Shown here piece after piece: positions 1 through 14,877 of a DNA stretch of 16,593 nucleotides. The DNA lies in NCBI GenBank assembly GCA_026991065.1, contig JALXCG010000553.1, forward strand, positions 1 to 16,593, given 5' to 3'. Source of the DNA: JALXCG01 sp026991065 [NCBI: Gemmatimonadota bacterium] (GTDB taxonomy: Bacteria; GCA-2686955). The position numbers and the translations under genes are program-made. The notes under the pieces are model-generated. The model worked only from the letters and a program-made list of their open reading frames with translations. It did not search any database and was not told the origin of the DNA. Within the stretch, counting starts at the first letter, position 1. Every line of letters begins with the position of its first letter.

Positions 1-618
1 CGGTCGGCCACGGAATACGCCATGAACCTTCGCACGGTGCCGTTCAAGATCGGGCATGGACGCACAGATATACTGGTTCGTCCCCATCATGCCAAGGACC
101 TGGATCGGGCAATTCGCGCCTACGACCCTCTCTACTACGATGGAATCTACTGGCACTGGGGAAGCCACTGGGTTCTGCCGCGGCATGCGCGAATGACGGT
201 CTCCTGGTTCGAAGACAAGGTGCTGCGCCCCTCCCCCGACTTCCTCTTGCTAACCGTCGATGAGGATATGCGGATTCACTATCTTGACGTTGGACCGCGG
301 CAACCGGACGCGGAGTTTGCGCGTCTGCAGAGCGAAGTTCTGCCCGAGATCAACACGTGGGATCTTCAAGTCCAAGGGGCGTCACGCGTGGGGCTCTACC
401 TGGCCGACTCGGCGCTTGACGGCGGTCACGACCTTGCTTTGGATGTTCTGCGCGCGGAACCGGTGGATCTGGAATGGATCGGAATCACCGGGGAGGTGGG
501 AGCGGTTCTCCGTGACAATGAACCCTTCAGCGACTACACACTCGACTCCGGGACCCTGACCCTGCACGCGCGAGAATCGGGCATCCGATCCGAGACCTAT
601 GCCGTGCTCATGAACTGA
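1..618 (+). CDS. Probable alpha/beta-hydrolase (prolyl-oligopeptidase/esterase-like), C-terminal part
   Basis: The frame is open from base 1 through the first ATG at 22, so this is most likely the 3' part of a longer gene cut by the window edge. The visible piece begins with a pattern typical of the end of an alpha/beta-hydrolase core: an HGRTD segment whose Asp (bases 67-69) sits where the catalytic Asp is expected, about 30 residues before a GSHW segment (His at 166-168) where the catalytic His is expected. The following ~130 residues are strand-rich and resemble the beta-sandwich tail of secreted esterase/peptidase-like proteins, not a hydrolase core. The nucleophile Ser would lie upstream, outside the window, so activity cannot be judged. 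The gene ends 8 bases before a strong stem-loop and is convergent with the sigma factor gene. Family assignment is by pattern only. An unrelated strand-rich protein starting at 22 is possible. Confidence 0.45.
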   Translation, partial: RSATEYAMNLRTVPFKIGHGRTDILVRPHHAKDLDRAIRAYDPLYYDGIYWHWGSHWVLPRHARMTVSWFEDKVLRPSPDFLLLTVDEDMRIHYLDVGPRQPDAEFARLQSEVLPEINTWDLQVQGASRVGLYLADSALDGGHDLALDVLRAEPVDLEWIGITGEVGAVLRDNEPFSDYTLDSGTLTLHARESGIRSETYAVLMN

Positions 619-697: not shown

Positions 698-1561
698 TCA
701 GTTTTCGAGGTAGTGCTCAAGCAAGTGGCGACGGGAGTGCATTCGCAGCCGTCCAAGCGCCTTCTCTTTGATCAGGCGAATGTTCTCTTTTGTGCAGCCG
801 AACTCGTCGCCAATCGCCTGCAACGTACGGGGTGTTTCGCCGGCAAGGCCGAAATAGAGGGTAATCACGCGGGCTTGACGCGGGGCGAGAGAGGAGAGTG
901 CGCGCAGCACATCTCGCCCCAGCGATTCTTCGGTGAGTTTGGCTGCCACTTGATCTTCGAAACTGGTTTCGATGAAGTCCATGAGGGGGCTCTCGCCATC
1001 TTCGCTCACGGGTGCATCGAGCGAAAGATGCGCCCGTCCCAGTACGAGATCCTGCTCGACCGTCTCCGGTGACAGTTCGAGTTCTTCCGCGATCTCCTCG
1101 ATGCGTGCTTCGCGGTGTTCGCGGTTCTCGATCTCGCGGGCCGCGCGCTTGACCCGCTTGATCTCTTGCGACTTGTACTGTGGATAGCGAACCACGCCAT
1201 TGGCTTCAGCGACGGCCTTGAGGATCGACTGGCGAATCCACCACACCGCATAGGAGATGAAGCGCACGCCCTTGGTTTCGTCGAACCGGTGGGCCGCCTT
1301 GATCAGCCCCACATTGCCTTCACCGATCAGATCTTCCAGAGGTAAGCCGCGATTTCGAAACTGATTGGCGATTTTCACAACAAAGCGCAAGTTGGCTGTA
1401 ACAAGGCGGTCCAGCGCGGCGCGATCACCAGCTCGTGCCGCGCGCGCCAAATCGACCTCGGCCTCGCGGCTGATCAGGGTCTCGCGGCCGATTTCATTGA
1501 GGTAGCTGCTCAAGATGTTGAGTGGCTCGCGCTTGGCAGGGGGAGAAGTTGCGGTGATCAT
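698..1561 (-). CDS. Sigma-70-family RNA polymerase sigma factor (probably alternative, RpoD/RpoS-like)
   Basis: This is an RNA polymerase promoter-recognition subunit of 287 residues, counted from the ATG at 1561. Region 1.2 (about 14-47), region 2 (51-126, with the VVKIANQF and YAVWWIRQS core-binding and -10 motifs), region 3 (127-205) and region 4 (210-280, helix-turn-helix TLQAIGDEFGCTKENIRLI) are all present. Region 1.1 is absent, as in short FCB-group primary sigmas and in RpoS-like group 2 factors. The DNA-contact positions are unusual. The segment normally read as QARTIRIP is ANGVVRYP, and the region 4 motif normally read as RERIRQIE is KENIRLIK. I chose ATG 1561 because GGAAAG lies 10 bases upstream. 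An in-frame GTG at 1612 has no Shine-Dalgarno sequence. The gene is preceded by a sigma-54-type promoter. The family is certain. Whether it is the housekeeping factor is not, and the altered contacts and RpoN promoter argue against that. Confidence 0.93.
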   Translation of the reverse strand: MITATSPPAKREPLNILSSYLNEIGRETLISREAEVDLARAARAGDRAALDRLVTANLRFVVKIANQFRNRGLPLEDLIGEGNVGLIKAAHRFDETKGVRFISYAVWWIRQSILKAVAEANGVVRYPQYKSQEIKRVKRAAREIENREHREARIEEIAEELELSPETVEQDLVLGRAHLSLDAPVSEDGESPLMDFIETSFEDQVAAKLTEESLGRDVLRALSSLAPRQARVITLYFGLAGETPRTLQAIGDEFGCTKENIRLIKEKALGRLRMHSRRHLLEHYLEN

Positions 1562-1659: not shown

Positions 1660-1675
1660 TGCAAGTAATGTGCCA
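1660..1675 (-). promoter_or_regulatory. Sigma-54 (RpoN) -24/-12 promoter for the sigma factor gene
   Basis: Read on the minus strand the site is TGGCACATTACTTGCA. It matches the RpoN consensus TGGCAC-N5-TTGC at all ten of those bases, with exactly 10 bases between the -24 GG (1674-1673) and the -12 GC (1662-1661), followed by an A-run as usual. The predicted transcription start is near 1649, giving an 88-base leader to the ATG at 1561. It lies in the intergenic region and points at the sigma factor gene. Confidence 0.8.
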
Positions 1676-1793: not shown

Positions 1794-1994
1794 AAGGGCA
1801 ACGGTGTCGCCGGAAGAGGACAGCACTGGCTCTGGCTGATAAACGGCGACCGGCTGCCATGAACAGCTGCTCCGAGCAAGGTCGAACCGGCCGAATTGTG
1901 CTTGCCAATCGGGTCGCCCCACGATTCTGGCGTGCGATGCGCTATGCTGCCGTATCCGCACGATGAGGACTGCGTTTTGACTCCGGAGAGGATG

Positions 1995-2786
1995 ATGCAT
2001 TTCGGACCAGTGCAGAGGTTTCGACGGGAGCTGATGGCGCCGAGGCTGCGCATGCAGTTGGATTATCATCGCGCGCTGCGCGAAATCCGCGCGGACAACA
2101 CGATCCAAAAGTGTCTGCCGGATCCCGGAAATGTCCTGGTTCTCGCCCCCCACTCCGATGATGAAGTTCTTGGCGCGGGGGGGACGGCGGCACTGCATGT
2201 CCGTCGGGGTGATCGGGTTGAAGCAGCGATCGTCACCGATGGCCGTTTCGGGCAGGATGGCGACATCGATCCCGAAGAGTTGGCCCGCATCCGGGAAGCT
2301 GAATCGCGTGCCGCCGGGGAGCAGATTGGGTTCAACCAGATGCACTTTGGCGGCATGAGCGACCGCGAGGAAGAGACCCGGCGGCAGATGACGCGTTGGT
2401 TGGCGGACCTACTGGAAGAGCTGCGTCCTCGGGTGATCTACTTGCCGTCGCCGATCGATTTCCATCCGGATCATGCGATGGTCAACGAGTTTCTGTTCCA
2501 GGCCCTGCGCGCCTCTGCTCCGGCCCCGGAAGTGGTGGCCGGCTATGAGGTTTGGGCAACGCTGTGGCCGAACTGCGTGATCGACATCTCCGCCACCGTG
2601 GCGATCAAACGCCGCGCCCTGGATCTGTTTCCGTCGCAAATGGGGCGCTCGAATGTGGATGGTGCCTGCCTGGGACTCGGGCGATACCGTGGTCTGACCT
2701 CCGGCGCGGGGGGGGCTGCCGAGGCTTTTTCCTGCAGTTCGGCCGCGGAGTTCAGCGCTCTGTGGGATCGGTTGCGTTGGCCGTGA
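1995..2786 (+). CDS. PIG-L/LmbE-family metal-dependent N-deacetylase
   Basis: Members of this family are Zn-dependent amidases that remove acetyl groups from N-acetylglucosamine-type sugars or glycoconjugates. From the ATG at 1995 the protein has 263 residues, normal for the family. The metal/base motif APHSDDEVLG (residues 51-60) supplies His53, Asp55 (general base in MshB-type enzymes) and Asp56. The second motif HPDH (157-160) supplies the third metal ligand, His160. About 45 residues precede the first strand, and there is no signal peptide or membrane segment, so a cytoplasmic location is likely. I chose ATG 1995 because GGAG at 1985-1988 lies 6 bases upstream. An ATG at 1944 and a TTG at 1896 extend the frame but lack ribosome sites. 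The 3' end overlaps the convergent sulfotransferase gene by 35 bp. The substrate is unknown: sugars of a cell-surface or flagellar glycan and small-thiol precursors are both possible. Confidence 0.88.
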   Translation: MHFGPVQRFRRELMAPRLRMQLDYHRALREIRADNTIQKCLPDPGNVLVLAPHSDDEVLGAGGTAALHVRRGDRVEAAIVTDGRFGQDGDIDPEELARIREAESRAAGEQIGFNQMHFGGMSDREEETRRQMTRWLADLLEELRPRVIYLPSPIDFHPDHAMVNEFLFQALRASAPAPEVVAGYEVWATLWPNCVIDISATVAIKRRALDLFPSQMGRSNVDGACLGLGRYRGLTSGAGGAAEAFSCSSAAEFSALWDRLRWP

Positions 2787-5034
2787 CGGAAGCCGGGCCG
2801 GCCATCTTGGTTGCTTCGCCGCCGGCAAACAGCCACGCCGGAGTCTGCCCGTCGAAGTGGATTGTAGAGGGCGGGGTTACGCCGAAAAGGCGCAGCATGA
2901 TCGGGGTGAGATCCACCAGGTCGAGCGACTGAGGGGCGGTGTGTTGGGCGATGGCGCTGCCGGAGGCGATGAAGATCCCCGCCTTCTGGTGCCAGCCTTG
3001 CATCTTGTGGTGAACCGTCTCCCCCTTGTCGTCCAGCACTTTGGCGAATTCTTCGGTGTCGGGGTGGGATTTTCCCTGCATGCCATGATCGCTCATGATG
3101 ATCACGTTCTCGGCATCGACGGCATTGAGAACGCGTCCGACCAATTGATCCAGGAGCGCGTAGGAATCATGCACGGCACTGGCGTCATCCCAGAACCAGT
3201 GCCCAACATTGTCGGGGGTGTAGAGCACGATCGTTGCCAGATCGGTTGGGTGGGCGCGGACCAGTTTTTCCCAGTAGTGGATGCACTGGCGGTCGGTTTC
3301 CCACTGCTCGCGAAGAAACTCCGCGGTTGTCTGGGGGAGGATTCGCGGATGCGCGCGGTACCCTTGCAGTGTGTTGCGAACCGCCGGCGTCATCCGCTGA
3401 AGTGGTGCGAAGCGACCCGGAACGATGTAGCCGAGCACCGGGTCAACTTGATAGGCCAGGGGCATGTTGAGGAATCCGGTGGAGATCCCGGCGGCATTCA
3501 GCATCTCCCACACCTTGGTCGCGCGCACGTCGAGATAACTCATGTCTTCGAAACGCCGCTGGCTTTCATCGAAGCCGTGATGCCTGGGATCGAGACCGGT
3601 GAAGAAGGATGGCCATGCACAGCCGCTCATGGGCGGAGACACACTGGCCAGGGGACCGTGACTGCCGCGCTGGATCAAGGCCTGGAAGCTCTCCAAACGG
3701 GGCAGTTCGTCGAAGAGCACATTCGGCGTCATCCCATCCAGCCCGATGACCAGGAGTTTCACTTTGGGGCGCTTGCCAACCGCCTCCGGGCGCAGGAGCG
3801 CCGGACCCCGGAGCAAGAGTTCCTCCTCAGGTGGCGGCGGCAACGCCGGCGCGGATGGTGGAGCATCGTCCCCGGGCTCCGCGGCGGCGGCCGGCTCGGC
3901 GGAAGCTGAAGGCGTGTCGTGCGGGGTTTCGGCCGTCATCTCCTCGGTGACGTGATCGATCTCCGGGGCGTCGATATCGCCGGGGGCGGCGGGAGGCGGA
4001 TCGGGAAGCGGTGATCCGGGGACCGGAGGTTGCGGGGCGGATTCAGGGGTTGCCTCGACGCCGGTTTCGGCGGTGGGGGCCGCGGCCGGAGCCGACTCTC
4101 TTTCAACCTTGGCCGGTGTATCGATGGTGACTGCGGTGATCTCGCCGGAACTTGGAGGAGAATACCCGTAGAGGTCGCACAACTCCTCGAATTCAGGCGT
4201 GGTCGGACAACTTGCGACCAGGCGCGCGGCCGGCATTCGTCGCCACTTCCCCACTTGGCCGGGGTCGACCCGCTCCAGAAGAGAACGCAGTTCCTCGCTG
4301 TCCAGGAGCGGTGTGCCGAGGAATGTCTCCAACCGGGCAAACATCTCTTGCGGCTGGCCGGCAAGCTCCTCGAAGGGAACCTCAATTCGGCGGGTCGCCG
4401 GGATCTGCTCTTTGAAGTTGTGCCAGAGCCGATTCCACGCGGTCCATTGGTCGCGACAGTCCGCCATGGTAAATCGCAGACTGCCGGTGAATCCCCGGCG
4501 CGTATTGCGATGGCGGAAGAGTGACTCCATTACATCGCCCGGGTGCCGCCGGAGAAAGATGTAGCGTCCGTCAGGGAAGAGCGCGTTCAACGCCTCCAAG
4601 TGAAAGAGGTACTCCGGGTATTTGTCACCCCAGAATGCGAGATCCGGGATGTCCAGTGAATGGCTCTCGAAGCAGAGCGCGCGAATGAAACCATCGACAT
4701 CCATGGACTCCGCCCAGTTTTCCAGGCGGCCGCTGCGAATCTGCAGTGCGAGTACTCGCTGCACGTTGTTGAAGATGTGCTGCAACTCCGGTGGCCCGTT
4801 TTCGCCGCCGGTGCGGCGGAAGGCGTGGAGAAACTCCACCATGCGAAGATTGCGAAATGCCGCCGGGGAGGTGCAAAGGTGTCTGAACCAGATGATGGCG
4901 AACCGGATCACACCGAACTCCGAGCCGAATCCTCCCCGGGGATGCGAAGCGAGGATCCGGGCCGCGAGCGTAGTGCCGGAGCGCTGGCAGCCCAGCATGA
5001 TGAGCGGAGCGTTGGCGGAGGTGAGAGGGGGCAT
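2752..5034 (-). CDS. Sulfotransferase fused to alkaline-phosphatase-superfamily domain
   Basis: The protein has 760 residues in two enzyme modules. Residues 10-290 form a PAPS-dependent sulfotransferase: the 5'-phosphosulfate loop GCQRSGTTL (15-23) and the 3'-phosphate site RHPGDVMES (163-171, Arg163 and Ser171). Residues 300-420 form a Pro/Ala/Glu-rich linker. Residues 424-735 form a phosphodiesterase-like alkaline-phosphatase domain with a full set of expected ligands: Asp433 (GLDG), nucleophile Ser470 (PPMSGCAW), Asp608 and His612 (DNVGHW), Asp649-His650 (SDHG) and His682. Relatives usually carry Thr or Ser at the nucleophile. No signal peptide is visible, so both modules should be cytoplasmic, where PAPS is made. 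AGGAG lies 8 bases before the ATG and touches the stop codon of the preceding gene, only 15 bases away, so the two are translated as a pair. The acceptor and the hydrolysed ester are unknown. Confidence 0.88.
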   Translation of the reverse strand: MPPLTSANAPLIMLGCQRSGTTLAARILASHPRGGFGSEFGVIRFAIIWFRHLCTSPAAFRNLRMVEFLHAFRRTGGENGPPELQHIFNNVQRVLALQIRSGRLENWAESMDVDGFIRALCFESHSLDIPDLAFWGDKYPEYLFHLEALNALFPDGRYIFLRRHPGDVMESLFRHRNTRRGFTGSLRFTMADCRDQWTAWNRLWHNFKEQIPATRRIEVPFEELAGQPQEMFARLETFLGTPLLDSEELRSLLERVDPGQVGKWRRMPAARLVASCPTTPEFEELCDLYGYSPPSSGEITAVTIDTPAKVERESAPAAAPTAETGVEATPESAPQPPVPGSPLPDPPPAAPGDIDAPEIDHVTEEMTAETPHDTPSASAEPAAAAEPGDDAPPSAPALPPPPEEELLLRGPALLRPEAVGKRPKVKLLVIGLDGMTPNVLFDELPRLESFQALIQRGSHGPLASVSPPMSGCAWPSFFTGLDPRHHGFDESQRRFEDMSYLDVRATKVWEMLNAAGISTGFLNMPLAYQVDPVLGYIVPGRFAPLQRMTPAVRNTLQGYRAHPRILPQTTAEFLREQWETDRQCIHYWEKLVRAHPTDLATIVLYTPDNVGHWFWDDASAVHDSYALLDQLVGRVLNAVDAENVIIMSDHGMQGKSHPDTEEFAKVLDDKGETVHHKMQGWHQKAGIFIASGSAIAQHTAPQSLDLVDLTPIMLRLFGVTPPSTIHFDGQTPAWLFAGGEATKMAGPASVTANATDPTER

Positions 5035-6198: not shown

Positions 6199-8847
6199 CT
6201 ACTTCTTGGCGATCGCCTGGCTCAGGTTATCCAGTCCCGCAAGCTGTGCGGTAAGGAACGCGCTTTGGCTCTGCAGAGTTCCCATGGTTGTTTCCATGCT
6301 CAGGAACTCCGCCGTGAGGGTTTCCTGTCTCTTCGCGACCCGCTCCTCCATGGAATCGATTTGATTGGCCAGCAGATCGATTTGATCCTCCAATGCACCG
6401 ATCCGCCCGCCGACGAGCCCATTGTCCTCATTGTAGGATTTGATCAGTTCATCCAGGCGGAAACCCATGCCGCGGGTAAATGAAACATAGCCCTGGTTGG
6501 AACCTTGCGAGGCAAGCTCATCCGGAGTCAACAAAACCTCTACCTGAAGCCCCTTGGCATTTCCGGAGTCGGCCGTCAGTATTCGCCCCTGGCCGGTGGC
6601 AATCGAGCCATTGATTCGGCCCTGGACATTTACGCCTGATGTCTTGCCAGAGGTTCCCAGCGACAGAATGTTGTTGGCCGAGGAGGGCGGCGCTTCCAAC
6701 TCAACCGTGGAATCGGATCCCCACGAGAGGGAGCGGATGATCAATTGGCCCTCATCCGGATTGTTCGCATCCTCCTCCCACACCACCTCGACATCTTGCG
6801 CGCCGAGCGAGCTTTGCTCATAGAGCGAACGCTCGATCATGGCGGCCAGCTCCTTGCCGCTGGAATAGCTGCCCTCTTCGAGGTTGAACATGCCGGAATC
6901 GCGACCGTCGATGCTGAAGCGCATCTTCTTGTGGGCCCCATCGATGGTCAGGGGATTGGATGCCGATACCTCGATGGTCTGGCCGACCCGCTCGGCGTGG
7001 GTCGCGGCGCGGGTCACTTCAACCCGGTAGCCGGTGCCTTCGGTGACGGTGTCTGCGGTTGAGGTGACGTAGCGGATGTCGTTATCGGTGGCGTTGCCGA
7101 GTTCGGCGAAGAGCGCGATCACGCTGTTGAAGTCGTCCGACAACTCCTCCTTGAACTTGGTTTGGTCAAAGCTCAAGGTGCCGTCATCGCCGGATCGGAT
7201 TCCAACTTGCGAGAGGGCTCTGGTGTCGCTGCTCATGTCCGGCTGGTTGCTGGTGACCATGGCCCGAATCTGAGTCTGTACAGTCAAGAGCGAGGAGTCG
7301 CCAAGCAGGACGCCCCCCACCTCCATGTCGGGGTCATAGTTGAACTGAGCATTGAGAAACTCCATCAGCTCGTTGTAGCGATCGACAAAGTTTTGCACCG
7401 AGTCAACGATGGCGGAGTCGTCACGGCTGATGGTGAGTTTGACGCTCTCGGTGGTGTCTGCTGCTTGCAGGTCCAGGGTTACGCCCTCGATCAGCCCGGT
7501 TACTTGGTTGGTCGATGAGTGAACCAGGATGGGGTTGCCGCCGCCATCACTGGAGCCGAACTGGACGATGGCGTCTTGAGCTTGCTGGATGGTGTTGACG
7601 CCCGATCCCGGCGTCACATCCAAAGTGAATTGATCCCCGCTTTCCAGTGATCCAGCGTCGAAAGCGACCTGTAGTCCGTTGCCCAGATCGATTGCATCGC
7701 CCGCGGTATAGCCCGCGTCGAGGTCAAACGATCCGCTGTTGCCATATAGATCCTGCCATGTGACGGTTACATCTTGGGTATCGCTTCCCACCAGACCGTA
7801 GCCGGTTTCCATTTCTGCGGAGAAGGACTCGTCGGCGACCGCGGTATCGCCCACGTTGAATTGCACCGTGACTCCTTCACTGCCGAGTGCGATCGGGTCA
7901 CCGGTGTAGGTCCCGTCAAGGGTGATGGTTTGGGCGTTTTCGCCATCGTTCCATACAATCTCCACAGTGTCGGTACCGATGGTGCCGCCGGAGATTACCT
8001 GGAAGTCGTAGGTCTTGTCGGTGGCGCCGGTGTAGTCGCCGCCGAGAGTCGGAGTGCCTCCGCTCCAGGAGGAGAGGTCGGGGGGGCCGATAACGGCGGG
8101 ATCGAATGTGCCGGCGGTGAATGTGTAGGTATTGGGTAGCGTTCCCTGGTAAGCGCCGGGTGTTGATATTGCGCTGGTGGAGTTGCCGCTCCACGCCGAT
8201 GCGGTGGTGTCTCCCGGGGCACTGAAGCTGAGTGAATCCTGTCCGCCAGAGAGATTCGTGGTGACCGCGATTGTGTTGTCGGCACCTGTTTTCTCCGCGG
8301 TGAGAACCAACTGTTTGCCATAGCTCTCGGCACCCGTGTCGATCACCGAGGCCACAACCCCGACGCCGGCGTCGTTGATGGCGTCACGAATCCCTTCGAG
8401 AGTTGTGTCCTGCCCAGATTCGATGGTAACGGTCTTGGTGGAGTCTCCGACACTGATCTGGATGGTCCCGGTACCGAAAGAGGTCTGATCGGAGTCGTCG
8501 TAACCGCGGGAGGCGATCTGGTGGTTCTGCGCCAATTGCTGAACGGTCAGATCGTAGGTACCGAATGCGGCATCATCGGCCGCGGTGGCAGTGAGCAGGT
8601 CGCTGTTGGATGAGGTCGCGGAGATCGCCGAAGTGAACGTGGATTGATTCTTGATCCCGTTGGTGGCGCTCTGCAGGGCGATGAGCATCGTCTGGACGCT
8701 TTTCCAGGCGGTCAGTTGGTTGGTCTTGAGCGCCTGGCGATTCTGCATGATCAGAATCGGCTGTCGCTCCACCTGAATGATGGCATCGACGAGTGCGGTA
8801 GTATCGAGCCCGGAAGCAAGTCCGGAGACCGACGTAGTGGGTTGCAT
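6199..8847 (-). CDS. fliD: Flagellar filament cap protein FliD (HAP2), unusually long
   Basis: FliD caps the growing filament outside the cell and helps flagellin fold into place. The N-terminal domain (1-110) opens with the family signature VSGLASGLDTTALVDAIIQVE, and the C-terminal domain (470-880) holds the SVQNFVDRYNELMEFLN helix, the GVLLGDSSLL segment and a terminal coiled coil (800-875). At 882 residues it is much longer than common FliDs (about 450-650). The extra length lies mainly in residues 205-430, made of imperfect repeats: 217-245 resembles 259-284, and 293-348 resembles 358-413. A second insert at 600-720 carries a domain also found in the flagellin of this locus. It is exported by the flagellar type III system, hence no Sec signal. 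GAGGAG lies 6 bases before the ATG. It sits between the flgM-like and fliT-like genes in one operon. Confidence 0.95.
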   Translation of the reverse strand: MQPTTSVSGLASGLDTTALVDAIIQVERQPILIMQNRQALKTNQLTAWKSVQTMLIALQSATNGIKNQSTFTSAISATSSNSDLLTATAADDAAFGTYDLTVQQLAQNHQIASRGYDDSDQTSFGTGTIQISVGDSTKTVTIESGQDTTLEGIRDAINDAGVGVVASVIDTGAESYGKQLVLTAEKTGADNTIAVTTNLSGGQDSLSFSAPGDTTASAWSGNSTSAISTPGAYQGTLPNTYTFTAGTFDPAVIGPPDLSSWSGGTPTLGGDYTGATDKTYDFQVISGGTIGTDTVEIVWNDGENAQTITLDGTYTGDPIALGSEGVTVQFNVGDTAVADESFSAEMETGYGLVGSDTQDVTVTWQDLYGNSGSFDLDAGYTAGDAIDLGNGLQVAFDAGSLESGDQFTLDVTPGSGVNTIQQAQDAIVQFGSSDGGGNPILVHSSTNQVTGLIEGVTLDLQAADTTESVKLTISRDDSAIVDSVQNFVDRYNELMEFLNAQFNYDPDMEVGGVLLGDSSLLTVQTQIRAMVTSNQPDMSSDTRALSQVGIRSGDDGTLSFDQTKFKEELSDDFNSVIALFAELGNATDNDIRYVTSTADTVTEGTGYRVEVTRAATHAERVGQTIEVSASNPLTIDGAHKKMRFSIDGRDSGMFNLEEGSYSSGKELAAMIERSLYEQSSLGAQDVEVVWEEDANNPDEGQLIIRSLSWGSDSTVELEAPPSSANNILSLGTSGKTSGVNVQGRINGSIATGQGRILTADSGNAKGLQVEVLLTPDELASQGSNQGYVSFTRGMGFRLDELIKSYNEDNGLVGGRIGALEDQIDLLANQIDSMEERVAKRQETLTAEFLSMETTMGTLQSQSAFLTAQLAGLDNLSQAIAKK

Positions 8848-8868
8848 GGTGGCTCCTCGGCCGGAGGG

Positions 8869-9180
8869 TCAAGCTGCGTAGATGGAAAGCAGCAGGCTTG
8901 AGATCGTTTTCTGTACTTCCGGTGTGTCGTAGAAGCCGCTGCTGATCCGCTCCCGTACGGCGCTCACCTGCTCTTCGCGGGGTTCGGAGAGATCCGGCAT
9001 GCGCGCCTGGAACTCCCGCGCAGTCTGCAGCTCTTCGCTGCGCCGCTTGCCTTCAGCCGAGATCTCGATCGGTTTGCGATTCGAGGGTGCCTGAGAGTTC
9101 TTGTTTTTTTTCTCGCCGCCCGGGCCTGGCAGTGCCGTCTGGTAGGCCGCCAGGATTGAGTTGGAGTGACCAATCTTCAT
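8869..9180 (-). CDS. flgM: FlgM-like anti-sigma-28 factor
   Basis: FlgM holds sigma-28 (FliA) inactive in the cytoplasm until the hook is complete, then is exported through the flagellum. This 103-residue protein has the usual size and layout: a flexible polar N-terminal half (1-38), then the sigma-binding half. The pattern EISAEGKRRSEELQ (39-52), REEQVSAVRERISSGFY (68-84) and a last helix (86-102) follow the family consensus, in which VxxLRxAIxxGxY precedes a final helix ending in KLL. I chose ATG 9180 because GGAG lies 7 bases upstream. An ATG at 9222 has none and would add 14 non-family residues. It is unusual for this gene to lie between fliS and fliD. No fliA is present in the window. 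Another small flagellar protein is possible, but the helix pattern fits FlgM best. Confidence 0.65.
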   Translation of the reverse strand: MKIGHSNSILAAYQTALPGPGGEKKNKNSQAPSNRKPIEISAEGKRRSEELQTAREFQARMPDLSEPREEQVSAVRERISSGFYDTPEVQKTISSLLLSIYAA

Positions 9181-9240
9181 GGCGAGTCTCCTGATTGAAG
9201 TTGAAGGCGGAGGCGAGTCCAAGCGGGTACGTATCTGCCC

Positions 9241-9648
9241 TTAGGTAGCGATCGGTTGCCCACTGCTTTCCTTGAGTTCAGCAGCGGCCGGGATCTTTTC
9301 CCAGCCCTCTTTGAGTGTGCTCAGGAGCTGAATCGCTTCCTGGGTCTTGGCGCTGGATTGCTCAAGATTGGCCTCGACAAGGAGGCGGAAGAGGTAGTGA
9401 TAGAGCGAGTAGAGATGGGTCGCGATGTCTCCCGCGTCGTGGTTCAGGGTGGACATCAGTTCAGTGACGATGCGTCGGGCGCGGATGATTGCATGGTGGG
9501 CGCGCTCACGCTGTTTTTCTTCGATCGCATCCGTGGCTTCGCGGAGGAAACGAATGGCGCCACCATAGAGCAGCAGGATCAGTTCGCGTTGGCTGGCGGT
9601 GTTGATTCGTGCCTGTTGATAGCTCTGGTAAGCTCTACCTGCGGCCAT
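9241..9648 (-). CDS. fliS: Flagellin export chaperone FliS
   Basis: FliS clamps the C-terminal helices of newly made flagellin, preventing polymerisation in the cytoplasm and guiding it to FlhA. The 135-residue protein shows the family pattern throughout: AYQSYQQARI near the N-terminus, SQRELILLLYGGAIRFL (19-35), and the AIIRARRIVTELMSTLNHD and HLYSLYHYLFRLL helices (53-92). The last 20 residues are polar and probably disordered. It follows flagellin by 92 bases, separated by a hairpin, and precedes the flgM-like gene by 60 bases. A GGGGGA stretch lies 7 bases before the ATG. Confidence 0.95.
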   Translation of the reverse strand: MAAGRAYQSYQQARINTASQRELILLLYGGAIRFLREATDAIEEKQRERAHHAIIRARRIVTELMSTLNHDAGDIATHLYSLYHYLFRLLVEANLEQSSAKTQEAIQLLSTLKEGWEKIPAAAELKESSGQPIAT

Positions 9649-9696
9649 TGTTGAATCCCCCGACTAAAGAAGGAAGGGCGCCCGGAAGGGGGTGGC

Positions 9697-9718
9697 CGCG
9701 GGGCCTTGCGGCCCCGCG
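9697..9718. terminator. GC-rich stem-loop between fliC and fliS
   Basis: CGCGGGGCC (9697-9705) pairs perfectly with GGCCCCGCG (9710-9718) across a TTGC loop. It begins 22 bases past the flagellin stop on the transcribed minus strand. There is no U-tract, so it is more likely a partial terminator or 3'-end protector that lets flagellin mRNA exceed fliS-fliD mRNA than a full stop. Confidence 0.6.
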
Positions 9719-9740
9719 AACCGGTGATGAAATGGTGGGA

Positions 9741-11462
9741 CTAGCCGAGCAGCGAAAGCACGGCTTGCGGTTGCTGGTTGGCCTGCGCCAGCATCGAGAT
9801 CGATGCCTGTTGCAGAATCTGGTTCTTGGTGAACTCGGCCATCTCCGACGCCATATCGGTGTCGCGCAGGGTCGAATCCGCCGCGTTGAGATTCTCGTGA
9901 GCCACTTGCAGGTTGGCCAGCGTTGACTCCAGCACATTGGTCTGGAAGTTGCCCAACTCAGCGCGTTCCGAAGAGACCTGAGAGATGGCTGCGTCGATCA
10001 CACTGATCGCCTCCTGCGCGCCGGCGAAGGTGGTGAGATCCAGCGACGAGAGTTTCTTGTCGGTGGTGCCCAACTGCGTCGCCGCCATCGAAGCGATGCT
10101 GACCGATTTGTACTGGCCGGCATTGGCGCCCAACTGGAACTTGAGCGAATTGTCCTCCGCGCGAACTTTGTTCGTGCCGGCCGTGACACCGGTGCCGAAG
10201 CGCAGATCCACCGATTCAATTCCGTTGCTCAGGGTTCCGGTGACGCCGACCTCGAAGCGGCGCTTGGTCTCGCCGTCGAGCTGCGCCAGGAAGCTCTTGG
10301 CATTGTAGGTCAACGTTGTCGACCCCAAGGTCAGTCCACTGCCCCCTGCGGCGACCGTGAAGGTGACTGAGTTGCCATCCTTGTCCTGCAGAGTTGCGCT
10401 CTTGGTTGTCCGCTCATCGACGTCGTAGATGTAGTTGACCTGGTTGTCCAGGGTAACGATGGCGTCCGTGCCGGTGGCAACCTCCTGCGTGACATTGATG
10501 TCGGAAAGGGCGCTGGAACTGGTCAGGCCGGTGTCGTGGATCGAGATGGAGGCGGCGGAGCCTTCATCTCCGGTGGTGAAGACCAAATGGTCATCGCTGT
10601 ACGAGACACTCACCTCGGCGGCGCTGTAACCCGCGTTGGTCAGAGCACTCGCCACAGCGCTGTCGACCGCCGACTCCAGGGCGCTGATGTTGGCATAGCC
10701 GCCGGTGGTGATCGAGACGGTCACCGCGGTGGCCCCATCGATCGAGAGCATGAACTGGTTGTTGCTGCTGGTGAGCGTAAGCGGGTTGGTGAAGTCGATA
10801 TCGTCGCCGGTAATGACGGCGCCCGCCGACTCTTGGGTGACCACGATCTGGTGATCGCCGGTCGACAGACCGCTGACACTTGTTGGGTCGCTCAGGCCGA
10901 GAGATTCGTTGTCGATGAACTGACTGGCATCGACGATCGAACTGACGGTGATGGTGTGGAAGCCCTCACTCAAGGTGGAGTTCTCGATCAACTCGATGTC
11001 CGAGGTGTTGGTCGAGATCCCAACGCTGTTGTCGGCGGAGCCATTCAGCAGGTACTGGTGACCGAACTGAGTCTCCTGGGCGATGCGGTTGATCGTGTCG
11101 ATTGACGACTCGAGCTGATCCTGATCCGCGGCGAGCTGAGTGGAGTCATTAACGCCTTCGTTGGAGGCATGCACGGCCAGCTCTCGCATGGTGGTGAGCA
11201 GAGAGTGTACCTCCGCGAGGGCGCCTTCCGCGGTTTGCAGCATATTGACCGAGGTCTCGCCGTTCTCGATCGCCTGTCCCAGGCCCGAAATCTGGGCGCG
11301 GAACTGCTGCGAGATGGAGAGTCCGGCCGGATCATCGGCGGCGGAGTTGATCCGCATGCCGCTGGAGAGACGCTCCAGGTTCTTGTTCAATCCGCCCTCA
11401 ACCTTGCTCAAATTGCGGAAGGCGGTCATCGACGCGATGTTGTGATTGATGCGCAACGACAT
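9741..11462 (-). CDS. fliC: Flagellin
   Basis: This is the filament subunit, exported unfolded through the flagellum and polymerised outside the cell. It has 573 residues from the ATG at 11462, where GGAGG lies 7 bases upstream. The D0/D1 N-terminal part (1-145) starts MSLRINHNIASM and contains LSSGMRINSAADDPAGLSIS. The C-terminal D1/D0 part (475-573) ends in the standard MLAQANQQPQAVLSLLG. The middle (150-470) is the variable surface domain, rich in Ser and Thr and so able to carry O-glycans. It includes a module at 225-310 that is also found in FliD of this locus. In the stretch corresponding to the TLR5-recognised loop of Salmonella FliC (LQRVRELAV), this protein reads LTTMRELAV, losing the key Arg. 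The open frame continues 89 residues upstream, but that extension is Arg/Pro-rich leader sequence and not protein. Confidence 0.97.
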   Translation of the reverse strand: MSLRINHNIASMTAFRNLSKVEGGLNKNLERLSSGMRINSAADDPAGLSISQQFRAQISGLGQAIENGETSVNMLQTAEGALAEVHSLLTTMRELAVHASNEGVNDSTQLAADQDQLESSIDTINRIAQETQFGHQYLLNGSADNSVGISTNTSDIELIENSTLSEGFHTITVSSIVDASQFIDNESLGLSDPTSVSGLSTGDHQIVVTQESAGAVITGDDIDFTNPLTLTSSNNQFMLSIDGATAVTVSITTGGYANISALESAVDSAVASALTNAGYSAAEVSVSYSDDHLVFTTGDEGSAASISIHDTGLTSSSALSDINVTQEVATGTDAIVTLDNQVNYIYDVDERTTKSATLQDKDGNSVTFTVAAGGSGLTLGSTTLTYNAKSFLAQLDGETKRRFEVGVTGTLSNGIESVDLRFGTGVTAGTNKVRAEDNSLKFQLGANAGQYKSVSIASMAATQLGTTDKKLSSLDLTTFAGAQEAISVIDAAISQVSSERAELGNFQTNVLESTLANLQVAHENLNAADSTLRDTDMASEMAEFTKNQILQQASISMLAQANQQPQAVLSLLG

Positions 11463-11805: not shown

Positions 11806-14800
11806 TTACATGCCAGCGGCGGCAGGGTCGAGACGCTGCTGTGGCGGTTGGTTGCGGCGATTGAGACGCTGAGCGGTTTGGTAGGCGACTTCGGCCGCGG
11901 CTGGGTGGCCCAGTGCCCGATAGGTGTCGCCGATGCGGGCGAAGGTGGTCGCCGAGGGCGGCAGGCCGGCGCGCAGTGCCGCCTCATAAGCCTGCAGTGC
12001 TTGCTCCGGCCGAGAGCTGTGGAAATGAATGTCACCGATGATGCACTGTACGTCCAGCAGTGTCGGGTCGGCGGTGAGTGCTTCTTCCAGCACCGGCAGA
12101 GCTTCGGCGCTGCGCCCGAGAAGCACCAGGGCTTTGCCGCGATTGGCCAGAACCGCCACGGTCGGCTCCTCGATGGCGCTGTAGAGTTTCAATGCCTTCT
12201 CCACCTCGCCCACTTCAAAGCAAAGATTGCCGAGGAGGCCGCAGAGTGCCGGGGCCGGCCCACAACTCTCGATGGCGCTGTTCAGCAGGTCGATCGCATC
12301 CTGTCGCCGTTGTTGCGCATGCAGCGCGCGTGCTTCGATGAGCCAGCCCTCGGCGCGCTCCGGAGCCGATTCTCGCGCGGCCCGCGCGACCTGGGCGGCG
12401 GTTTGCGGATCGCCGCTCTCTTCGCAGATCTCGGCCCAGGCGATCCGCGCCCGGTAACGCAGCAGTTCGGTTGGTGTTCCGAGATCATCGCCACCACGCT
12501 CGCTGGTTGCAGCGCGCTTGAATGCGTGCAGCGCGGCTGTCCAATTGGCCCGCTTTCTTTCCACCTGTCCCTGGTAGTAGAGGGCCTGGGGATCATCCGG
12601 ACGGTCGGCCAGGATCTCCTGGATCGGCTGCATGGCCCCGGGCAGATCGTCTTGTGCCAAAAGGATCCGGGCCAGGTAGATGCGTGCCTGATTGTAGATT
12701 CCGGGAGCTTCGCGGGGGCAAAGCGGATCTTCCAGGATCGCATGAATGTAGGGGATCGCTTCAGCCGGGCGGCCGGCGCCGAAATAGCTGCGAATCAGGT
12801 TGTGGCGCTCATGGTAGGTGGCATCCTCCTGCTCCGCGGCCGCGATCAGGAGCGGCAGATTGCGCTCCGCTTTGCTGCGGGCGGCGTGGGCGGCGACGTA
12901 GCCGTGGTGTTCGACCAGGATGTCGGACGCATCCACCACGGGAAAACCCAGCCGCTGCAGGCTTGGACCCACCTGTTCATGGATGACGCCGCTGAAGCAG
13001 ACGCCTGGATGATTGGGAAAGATCCGCAACTGGCGGGTGTCCGAAGCCAGGGAATCTTCCCGCAACATGCGGGCGCTGATCAGCAGTGCACCGGGCATTC
13101 GCGACCGGTCCGCGGCCAGGTTGCGGAGCTTCTCGCGCGATTCCGGCGGCAGCGTGTCGTCGGCATCCAGCCACATGACCCAGCGACATTCGGCATGGCG
13201 CAGTGAGGCGTTGCGGGCGGCGGCGAAGTCATCTTCCCAGGCGAAGTGATGCACCTCCGCGCCACATTCGCGGGCGATCTCCGGCGTGCGATCGGTGGAT
13301 CCGGTGTCGATCACCACAATCTGGTCGAATGCACCGGCGGCGCTGGCGAGGCAGCGGGGGAGGTTGCTCTCCTCGTCGCGAACGATCATGCAGAGGGTGA
13401 TGCCGGGACGCTGCTCGCCACGGCAGCCGTTCTGTTCGCCTTGAGCCCAGGCGGCGACCGCCTTTTGGCTGCGGTGCGGTTCGCGGAATCCCTCCGGGGC
13501 GAGTTCCGCCGCGCGGGCGAATGCCTCCTGCGCGGGAGCGAACTGCCCCAGGCGAGCGAGCACGTTGCCCCGCCGGTTCCAGAGTTCCCAGGCGGAGTGT
13601 TTGCGGACCAGCGATTCAGGGAGCAGCGCCAGGGCTTCCCGCGGCTGGTTCAACTCCAGCAGAATCGCCGCGTGAAGCTCGATGATCGGTGTGTGTCGGG
13701 GGGCGATCTCTGTCGCTTTGCGGATTGCATCCAGCGCTTCCCGGCGACGGCCGGCCGCCTGCAGGCAGCGCGCCAGGTTGAAGTGTGCGAGGGCGTAGGT
13801 TGGGGTGATTTCGGTTGCTCGCCGCAACAGTTCGATGGCGCGTTCGTTGTTGTGGTGTTGAAAATGCTCCAGCAGGGCGACCGCATGTAGCGCCGGGGCA
13901 TAGTCCGGAGCGGCCGCCAGGGCGCGTTCGGCACATTCGCGTGCTTCCCGGAAGCGCAGCTTGCCGAGCAGGGCGGAGGCTTGATGAACCAGCGCGACGG
14001 CGGGGTCCACACTGAGTTCCGCCGCTTTCTCGAAATAGGGCCGCGCGGCGTCGAGTTCGCCGCGTTGGGCCAGTACCAGCGCCACTTCCAGGTGGGCCTT
14101 GGAATCGTGCGGGTTTTCCGCAATCGCCTTGCGGCCCAACTCGAAATAGTAGTCGAGTTTGTCTCGGCTTTCGGCAAGGAGACCGTAATGATGCACCGGT
14201 ATCCGCGTGTGCGCGAGACGCACTCCCCGCGCTTCGGCGCTCGGTTCCAGCAGTTCATGGATGCGATGTTGCCAGCGCAGACCCGTGGCGCGCCGCCAGA
14301 GGCGGATCTTGGTTGATGGAACCCAGCCCGGGGCGCTGCGGCAGCGGCCGGGGTAAGAGTTGTCGTCCGGATGGAAATCGGGTGCGGCAGTGCGGTTGCA
14401 ATAGTTGCGCGTGGTGATCTGGATCGCGTCGGCGCGCGCCCGGCGCAGCAGCAGGCCGATCTTCTCGTGGTCTTCGGCGGCGATCTCTTCGTCGGCATCC
14501 AGGCTGAGAACCCAGTCGCCGCGGGCCTGGTCGAGTGCAGCGTTGCGCGCCGCGGCGAAATCGTCGATCCAATCGAAATGCCCGACCTTGGCGCCGAACT
14601 CTTTGGCGATCTCGATGGTGCGATCGGTGGAGCCAGTATCCATGATGACAATTTCGTCCGCCAGATCGCGCACGCTTGCCAGGCAATTCCGCAGGAACTG
14701 CTCCTCATTCTTGGTGATCATGGAGATGGTCAGGGTGGGACGACCATCGGCGCGCGGCGGCAGAGGGGGGAGCGGGCGTGGGCCGGTGGCCGCAGTGGCT

Positions 14801-14877
14801 CCGCGGGGAGTCGCTGTGCGCGTGGCTCGGCGCTGCTTGCCCGGACGACGTTTCTTGCTGCTTTTGCGTTTCGACAT
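11806..14877 (-). CDS. Tandem GT2 glycosyltransferase with TPR repeats
   Basis: The 1023-residue cytoplasmic protein contains two GT2-type (SunS/RfaG-like A-fold) modules, each followed by tetratricopeptide repeats. Module 1 (48-230) has MITKNEE (53-59), DTGSTDRT (80-87) and the metal site DADEE (127-131). TPRs follow (about 250-460). Module 2 (493-660) has MIVRDEE (497-503), DTGSTDRT (524-531) and DADDT (571-575), with a second TPR array at about 690-1005. Both nucleotide-sugar and metal motifs are intact, so two transfer steps or two donors are possible. The first 45 residues are Lys/Arg-rich and probably disordered. TPR-GT proteins next to flagellin genes (for example FlmG of Caulobacterales) glycosylate flagellin, with the TPRs binding it. 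Position directly upstream of fliC suggests the same here. The ATG at 14877 lacks a Shine-Dalgarno sequence, and a terminator-like stem precedes it. Confidence 0.9.
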   Translation of the reverse strand: MSKRKSSKKRRPGKQRRATRTATPRGATAATGPRPLPPLPPRADGRPTLTISMITKNEEQFLRNCLASVRDLADEIVIMDTGSTDRTIEIAKEFGAKVGHFDWIDDFAAARNAALDQARGDWVLSLDADEEIAAEDHEKIGLLLRRARADAIQITTRNYCNRTAAPDFHPDDNSYPGRCRSAPGWVPSTKIRLWRRATGLRWQHRIHELLEPSAEARGVRLAHTRIPVHHYGLLAESRDKLDYYFELGRKAIAENPHDSKAHLEVALVLAQRGELDAARPYFEKAAELSVDPAVALVHQASALLGKLRFREARECAERALAAAPDYAPALHAVALLEHFQHHNNERAIELLRRATEITPTYALAHFNLARCLQAAGRRREALDAIRKATEIAPRHTPIIELHAAILLELNQPREALALLPESLVRKHSAWELWNRRGNVLARLGQFAPAQEAFARAAELAPEGFREPHRSQKAVAAWAQGEQNGCRGEQRPGITLCMIVRDEESNLPRCLASAAGAFDQIVVIDTGSTDRTPEIARECGAEVHHFAWEDDFAAARNASLRHAECRWVMWLDADDTLPPESREKLRNLAADRSRMPGALLISARMLREDSLASDTRQLRIFPNHPGVCFSGVIHEQVGPSLQRLGFPVVDASDILVEHHGYVAAHAARSKAERNLPLLIAAAEQEDATYHERHNLIRSYFGAGRPAEAIPYIHAILEDPLCPREAPGIYNQARIYLARILLAQDDLPGAMQPIQEILADRPDDPQALYYQGQVERKRANWTAALHAFKRAATSERGGDDLGTPTELLRYRARIAWAEICEESGDPQTAAQVARAARESAPERAEGWLIEARALHAQQRRQDAIDLLNSAIESCGPAPALCGLLGNLCFEVGEVEKALKLYSAIEEPTVAVLANRGKALVLLGRSAEALPVLEEALTADPTLLDVQCIIGDIHFHSSRPEQALQAYEAALRAGLPPSATTFARIGDTYRALGHPAAAEVAYQTAQRLNRRNQPPQQRLDPAAAGM

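Follow-up and report, generated by a model that had tools for sequence, protein, structure and literature searches.

A predicted sigma-54 promoter before a group 2 sigma factor gene in a Gemmatimonadota bacterium, with similar elements before sibling sigma genes

Sigma factor genes under sigma-54 control

Sigma-54 promoters are silent without an activator, so a sigma factor gene placed behind such a promoter allows a signal to switch an entire regulon under tight control. Borrelia, the Lyme spirochaete, is the example usually cited. In Pseudomonas syringae, hrpL is controlled by HrpR/HrpS together with sigma-54, and HrpL is an ECF factor. The hrpL case resembles the one described here in that sigma-54 controls another sigma gene, but differs in the class of the target, since here the element was found at none of 13 ECF-like genes.

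The RpoN-RpoS relay of Borrelia burgdorferi is established, as the available parts of two accounts set out (PMC3037356; PMC11109971). Sigma-54 also acts ahead of FliA (sigma-28): the available text of PMC2725144 gives fliA as the best-scoring RpoN promoter of Geobacter sulfurreducens and cites Campylobacter and Vibrio. In a comparative survey, again as far as its available text goes, the sigma-subunit families COG1191 and COG0568 are enriched among predicted sigma-54 targets, and chaperones are among the targets in Bacteroidota and Planctomycetota (PMC12316311).

Here we describe a locus in a window of 16,593 nucleotides (the whole stretch of DNA that was analysed) from a Gemmatimonadota genome, G000 (the own genome), and compare it with one relative of the same phylum, G001. 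As in the Borrelia relay, a sigma-54 promoter, here predicted, lies directly before a gene for a group 2 or alternative sigma-70-family factor. The relay uses an NtrC-type activator, Rrp2; here the genome carries activator-domain genes, none of them adjoining the sigma gene of the window. Unlike the relay, the present case lies in another phylum, and the element stands before several sigma genes, which belong to distinct lineages. The FliA cascades share with it a sigma-54 promoter before a sigma-70-family gene, and one sigma gene of the phylum (gene 7 below) codes for a FliA paralogue and is preceded by the element in both genomes. However, the factor of the window is RpoS/RpoD-like, and its orthologue was not seen near flagellar genes. 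The survey likewise makes sigma subunits a recurring class of predicted sigma-54 targets, but its available text describes neither a single genome with many sigma-54-controlled sigma genes nor a Spirochaetota-wide arrangement. An earlier note on this DNA had called sigma factors under sigma-54 control rare, with Borrelia as the known case. The fliA cases (PMC2725144) and the COG1191 and COG0568 results (PMC12316311), in the parts of these sources that were available, contradict this, and the rarity was overstated. A single element of this kind is a further case of an already known type; what is new is the putative multi-sigma hub.

The element and its target gene

The minus strand, read from 1675 to 1660, has TGGCACATTACTTGCA, which is of the form TGGCAC-N5-TTGCA. 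It is an exact match to the -24/-12 consensus of a sigma-54 promoter, with the GG at 1674/1673, the GC at 1662/1661 and ten bases between them, and all ten consensus letters as well as the final W match. By a simple gene caller (one that overlooked the PIG-L gene at 1992-2786) the element is intergenic, and it is oriented towards the ATG at 1561, 98 nt downstream. Nowhere else in the window is TGGCACN5TTGCW matched exactly, and about 0.014 such matches would be expected from base composition; 1.4% of Markov-simulated windows (n = 500) contained one. Looser matches are uninformative, as 70 with up to three mismatches were observed in the window against 68 expected. The earlier note had described a sigma-54-type promoter with ten consensus bases, exact spacing, an intergenic position and the correct orientation, and in all these respects it is borne out. 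From the geometry of the element, transcription is predicted to start at 1649 on the minus strand, 12 nt after the C of the -12 GC, which would give a 5' leader of 88 nt (1562-1649).

The target gene (698-1561, minus strand) encodes a protein of 287 aa with Pfam regions 1.2, 2, 3 and 4 and no region 1.1. ECF identity is ruled out by this domain content. A separate primary RpoD is present in the own genome (G000:C176) and in the relative (G001:C38), and the possession of regions 1.2 to 4 without region 1.1, together with a separate RpoD, places the protein in group 2 of the sigma-70 family. Its best NCBIfam match is RpoS (TIGR02394) at 228 bits, which is below the cut-off of 378.7; the protein is RpoS/RpoD-like and outside the curated RpoS family, and an RpoS-like mode of working is possible. 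The region-1.1-less RpoD/RpoS-like factor that the earlier note had named as the target agrees with these results. A tree of 44 sigma proteins groups the window protein with its orthologue on a separate branch (support 100/100), which it leaves unplaced relative to RpoS, the Bacteroidota sigma factors and other lineages.

Judged from the DNA, the element is very probably a sigma-54 promoter that makes the group 2 sigma factor depend on an activator signal. An alternative to which we give some weight, while thinking it unlikely, is that the element is real but secondary, sigma-54 adding a conditional promoter to a gene that is mainly read from another. Group 2 sigma genes often have several promoters, which speaks for this alternative. 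A simple consensus scan of the minus strand from 1500 to 2000 found no sigma-70-type candidate, so that the 500 bases scanned offer no second promoter on the strand of the gene, although promoters of other sigma factors would escape a scan of this kind, which covered the sigma-70-type consensus only.

Two repeats lie near the element. A second TGGCAC, on the plus strand at 1642-1647, stands 22 nt from the -24 half of the element in inverted orientation; the pairing may be due to chance. A perfect inverted repeat, CGATTCG-N-CGAATCG (1779-1793), about 103 nt upstream of the element, is a tentative candidate for an activator site. Across the two genomes, GATTCG-N-CGAATC is found in the window and twice in the relative, there each time within a called gene; as the repeat is absent before the orthologue, it is not claimed as an activator site. 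Comparison of the two species revealed no conserved activator site upstream of the sigma gene.

Conservation in a relative

Conservation was tested in one other genome of the phylum, G001, which supplied a single close orthologue (n = 1). The orthologous protein is 76% identical to the window protein over 282 residues, and both gene neighbours are retained. These are a divergent PIG-L deacetylase gene (1992-2786, plus strand) and a convergent gene truncated by the window edge (1-618, plus strand), which looks hydrolase-like by eye from the longer copy in the relative; no Pfam match was found for its stretch 22-615. At the orthologue, TGGCGTGGGACTTGCA stands 151 nt before the start (G001:C11:25703-25718). 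The GG and GC, whose conservation the earlier note had proposed to check, are kept in this one orthologue of the one compared. The remaining spacer gives no convincing alignment with that of the window, and the distance from element to start is 98 nt in the own genome and 151 nt in the relative, a difference that we count against the sigma-54 reading.

The window also contains flagellin, fliS and fliD (6199-11462), and a strict sigma-54-type site precedes a gene of the flgE/F/G family in the own genome. These facts favour a role of the sigma factor as a flagellar regulator, with the element belonging to a flagellar cascade like those of Vibrio or Geobacter. Yet fliD, the flagellar gene nearest to the sigma gene, is more than 4 kb away from it, the protein is RpoS/RpoD-like while the own genome has two separate genes of the FliA/WhiG type, and no flagellar gene was seen in the 17.8-kb locus of the orthologue (among called genes, judged by eye from their N-termini). 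The flagellar role is rejected on the last of these grounds, and we consider it very improbable. Of the flagellar neighbourhood that the earlier note had pointed to, the genes themselves are in the window, but their vicinity to the sigma gene is not conserved; the cluster is probably a chance neighbour, since none was seen at the orthologue locus, and the flagellar link is unsupported. Sigma-28-type promoters were also looked for at the flagellar genes of the window; the best candidate had 9 of 12 matches, and none was clear.

RpoN and its activators

RpoN is encoded in the own genome (PF04552, E = 1.6e-64; 4 of 14 control genomes also match) and contains the sequence ARRTVAKYR, which we take to be the RpoN box. 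A similar RpoN box is given in the available part of PMC2725144. Activator domains of the PF00158 type were matched 31 times in the own genome, with 23 scores above 140 bits, and 29 times in the relative. The model matches all 14 control genomes, including some without rpoN, so weak matches carry no weight. Of 15 activator loci of the own genome, 9 had a strict GAFTGA-type motif, as did 6 of 15 in the relative. The presence of rpoN and of an AAA+ activator, a check suggested in the earlier note, is confirmed by these matches. No activator gene was found adjoining the sigma gene of the window or anywhere among the genes of the window. In both genomes, AAA+ activator genes stand directly upstream of the sigma genes numbered 6 and 7 below, and in G000 these activators consist of a receiver and a sigma-54 activation domain.

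Sigma-54-type sites in the two genomes

The own genome contains 29 copies of the pattern TGGCRYN5TTGCW and the relative 23, against 14 and 12 for the reversed pattern. The strict TGGCAC form is found 9 and 8 times, against 4 and 4. As even this form has only about double the count of its reversed control, frequency alone is a weak sign of promoter identity. The position of the sites is a stronger one: by the simple gene caller, every one of the 17 strict sites lies between genes and faces a gene start, 16 at distances of 33-261 nt and one at 377 nt. Strict sites precede groES (in both genomes), dnaK, an Hsp20 gene, the flagellar rod/hook-family gene (flgE/F/G family, own genome), the gene for a secreted protein (in both genomes), a FliA-type sigma gene, the window sigma gene and others. 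One stands before a flgB-like gene, so named by eye and with no Pfam match.

Sibling sigma genes

The two genomes have 14 and 15 PF04542 sigma genes; all counts exclude an incomplete sigma gene at the C865 contig edge, whose start is missing. Sixteen of these genes form eight orthologous pairs of RpoD-, RpoS- or FliA-like factors, and the other 13 are ECF-like, an assignment made by length and similarity. Sites of the form GG-N10-GC were scored from 0 to 7 in the 300 nt upstream of each gene, the starts of sigma genes 2 and 6 in G000 being set by alignment with the orthologue. The scores (G000/G001) were 7/6.0 for the window sigma gene (pair 3), 6.3/5.5 for pair 4 (43 and 35 nt) and 6.5/7 for pair 7, the FliA paralogue (120 and 122 nt). 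Pair 2, an RpoD paralogue, scored 5/6.5 (162 and 171 nt), pair 5 scored 4.5/5.8 and pair 6 scored 4.8/5.5, while the RpoD pair had 4.5/4.5 and pair 8, of the FliA/WhiG type, 3/2.

With a threshold of 5.5, which was picked after the sigma scores were known, 9 of the 14 genes of pairs 2-8 (those neither RpoD nor ECF-like) reached the threshold, versus 2 of 221 background genes (Fisher 2e-11). The excess persists when the window pair is left out (7/12, Fisher 4e-9) and among genes found independently of the TGGCRYN5TTGCW scan (4/9, Fisher 1.6e-5). The background comprised 221 genes with at least 250 nt upstream, from 40 contigs sampled at regular intervals of contig number, and nine of the genes reach 5. 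Reversed upstream regions reach 5.5 in 1 of 16 cases, and no opposite strand (0 of 16) does. The ECF-like genes all (13 of 13) stayed below 5.5, the highest score being 5; the one on C852 has only 86 nt upstream. In pairs 2, 5 and 6 the threshold is reached in one species only (pair 2 having 5 in the own genome). The reading of sigma-54 as a hub is based on the elements at both members of pairs 3, 4 and 7, with pair 2 contributing less firmly and pairs 5 and 6 less still.

Chance resemblance, in which the 16-mer would be unused and the sigma gene read from a sigma-70 promoter, has in its favour that the pattern counts, both loose and strict, are only about twice their reversed controls, but it is hardly credible in view of the intergenic and oriented position of every strict site, the element before the orthologue, the strong enrichment at sibling sigma genes and the lack of a sigma-70-type candidate on the minus strand between 1500 and 2000. 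The promoter call made earlier is sound, and it is better supported than the window sequence alone could show.

Two gene arrangements were seen at the sibling loci. An AAA+ activator, the FliA-paralogue sigma gene with its sigma-54 element, an HtrA-like protease and an RpoS-like sigma gene form a conserved cluster (L210, G001:C111, 10524-17297; L209, G000:C856, 4298-9862). Sigma gene 4 is downstream of an S41 (CtpA-like) protease gene in both genomes (L228, 9000-11723; L239, 4032-6658), the protease being recognized by Pfam in G000 and by eye in G001.

Other phyla and the Spirochaetota

Upstream regions of homologues from other genomes reached 5.5 in 4 of 106 cases, the 80 named ones being mostly from Bacteroidota; at the distant named homologues, largely Bacteroidota, the element is mostly absent. 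Two of these four cases come from G049 and G018, genomes outside the phylum. G049 has a site of 6.0 at 289 nt before one sigma match and one of 6.5 before another sigma gene. G018 has perfect sites at two short sigma genes and none at its five other scored sigma loci. In G007 and G054 no scored sigma locus reached 5.5 (8 of 20 and 7 of 14 matches being scored), the highest score being 4.5. The phylum of G018 is the Spirochaetota, to which Borrelia also belongs: in G108, a protein is identical over about 420 residues to SthK of Spirochaeta (now Winmispira) thermophila.

Sixty genomes of this phylum were searched with one G018 sigma protein, and the 30 best loci, one per genome, were examined. 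Of the short sigma genes, 22 of the 29 scored had at least 5.5, compared with 0/29 for the reversed control and 1/29 for the opposite strand. At the thirtieth locus, L352, TGGCACGCACTTTGCA stands just before the start. In total, 23 of the 30 best loci (L347-L376) carry the element, spread over 14 of 18 family labels, in a sample that is non-independent (several genomes share a genus), includes no Borrelia genome and leans towards relatives of the query, because the search started from a protein whose gene has the element. When the count was anchored more strictly to reading frames, 19 of the 27 frames that were located had it, against none in the reversed control, three of the 30 frames being unplaced. 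In four loci inspected closely, the ATG follows the element within about 45 nt. The term RpoS-like is used for these genes on the basis of frame length (267-414 aa) and of the 44-protein tree, which holds 13 of the 30.

These counts suggest that a sigma-54 element before short sigma genes may be widespread in Spirochaetota, and that the Borrelia relay may be an example of something found across the phylum. Leptospira interrogans is without RpoS according to the available part of PMC12655853, and the part of PMC6719511 that was available yielded nothing on other spirochaetes. Among the titles and abstract openings of top-ranked papers, few of them subscription papers, we recognized no description of a Spirochaetota-wide sigma-54-to-sigma arrangement or of a multi-sigma hub.

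Proposed mechanism and its implications

RpoN-polymerase would bind at 1660-1675 as a closed complex. A signal would then switch on an AAA+ activator, leading to transcription of 698-1561 from near 1649, and the sigma product would redirect core polymerase to its own regulon. For the window gene, the signal may plausibly be one of stress, as other strict sigma-54 sites precede chaperone genes. In the phylum, sigma-54 would be a hub above several alternative sigma genes. The element and its geometry, its recurrence before the orthologue and before sibling sigma genes, and the rpoN and activator genes are direct observations. The best reading is that sigma-54 gates a stress-type group 2 sigma factor within a multi-sigma hub.

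The sibling sigma genes with the element suggest a master-switch wiring wider than the single Borrelia example. We lean, with moderate confidence, towards a broader picture in which sigma-54 gates a battery of alternative sigma-70-family factors in the phylum (two to four RpoS-like lineages, together with paralogues of RpoD and FliA), Spirochaetota widely share this logic, and the Borrelia relay is one instance of an old and recurrent design that converts signals into whole-polymerase switches. If this is true, the Borrelia relay exemplifies a general design that harmless relatives would make accessible to study, and sigma hierarchies outside Proteobacteria need redrawing.

Heat-shock genes and other features of the window

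In both genomes the sigma-54 elements of groES and dnaK are preceded by an inverted repeat, CTGYCA-N3-TGRCAG (L257, G000:C324, 14988-15002; G001:C120:70656-70670; G000:C81:13583-13597; G001:C257:20819-20833). The motif, which was derived from three of these four promoters, occurs at five places in the two whole genomes, the fifth being inside a gene, and a variant of it precedes the Hsp20 gene. It looks like the site of a dedicated sigma-54 activator for heat-shock genes. The heat-shock-type site was absent from all five sigma gene promoters looked at.

Two further genes of the window were noted for their domains. A single gene at 2752-5034 fuses a sulfotransferase domain with a type I phosphodiesterase domain. 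At 11806-14877, adjoining flagellin, is the gene for a large protein with two family-2 glycosyltransferase stretches and TPR repeats, which perhaps serves in flagellin glycosylation.
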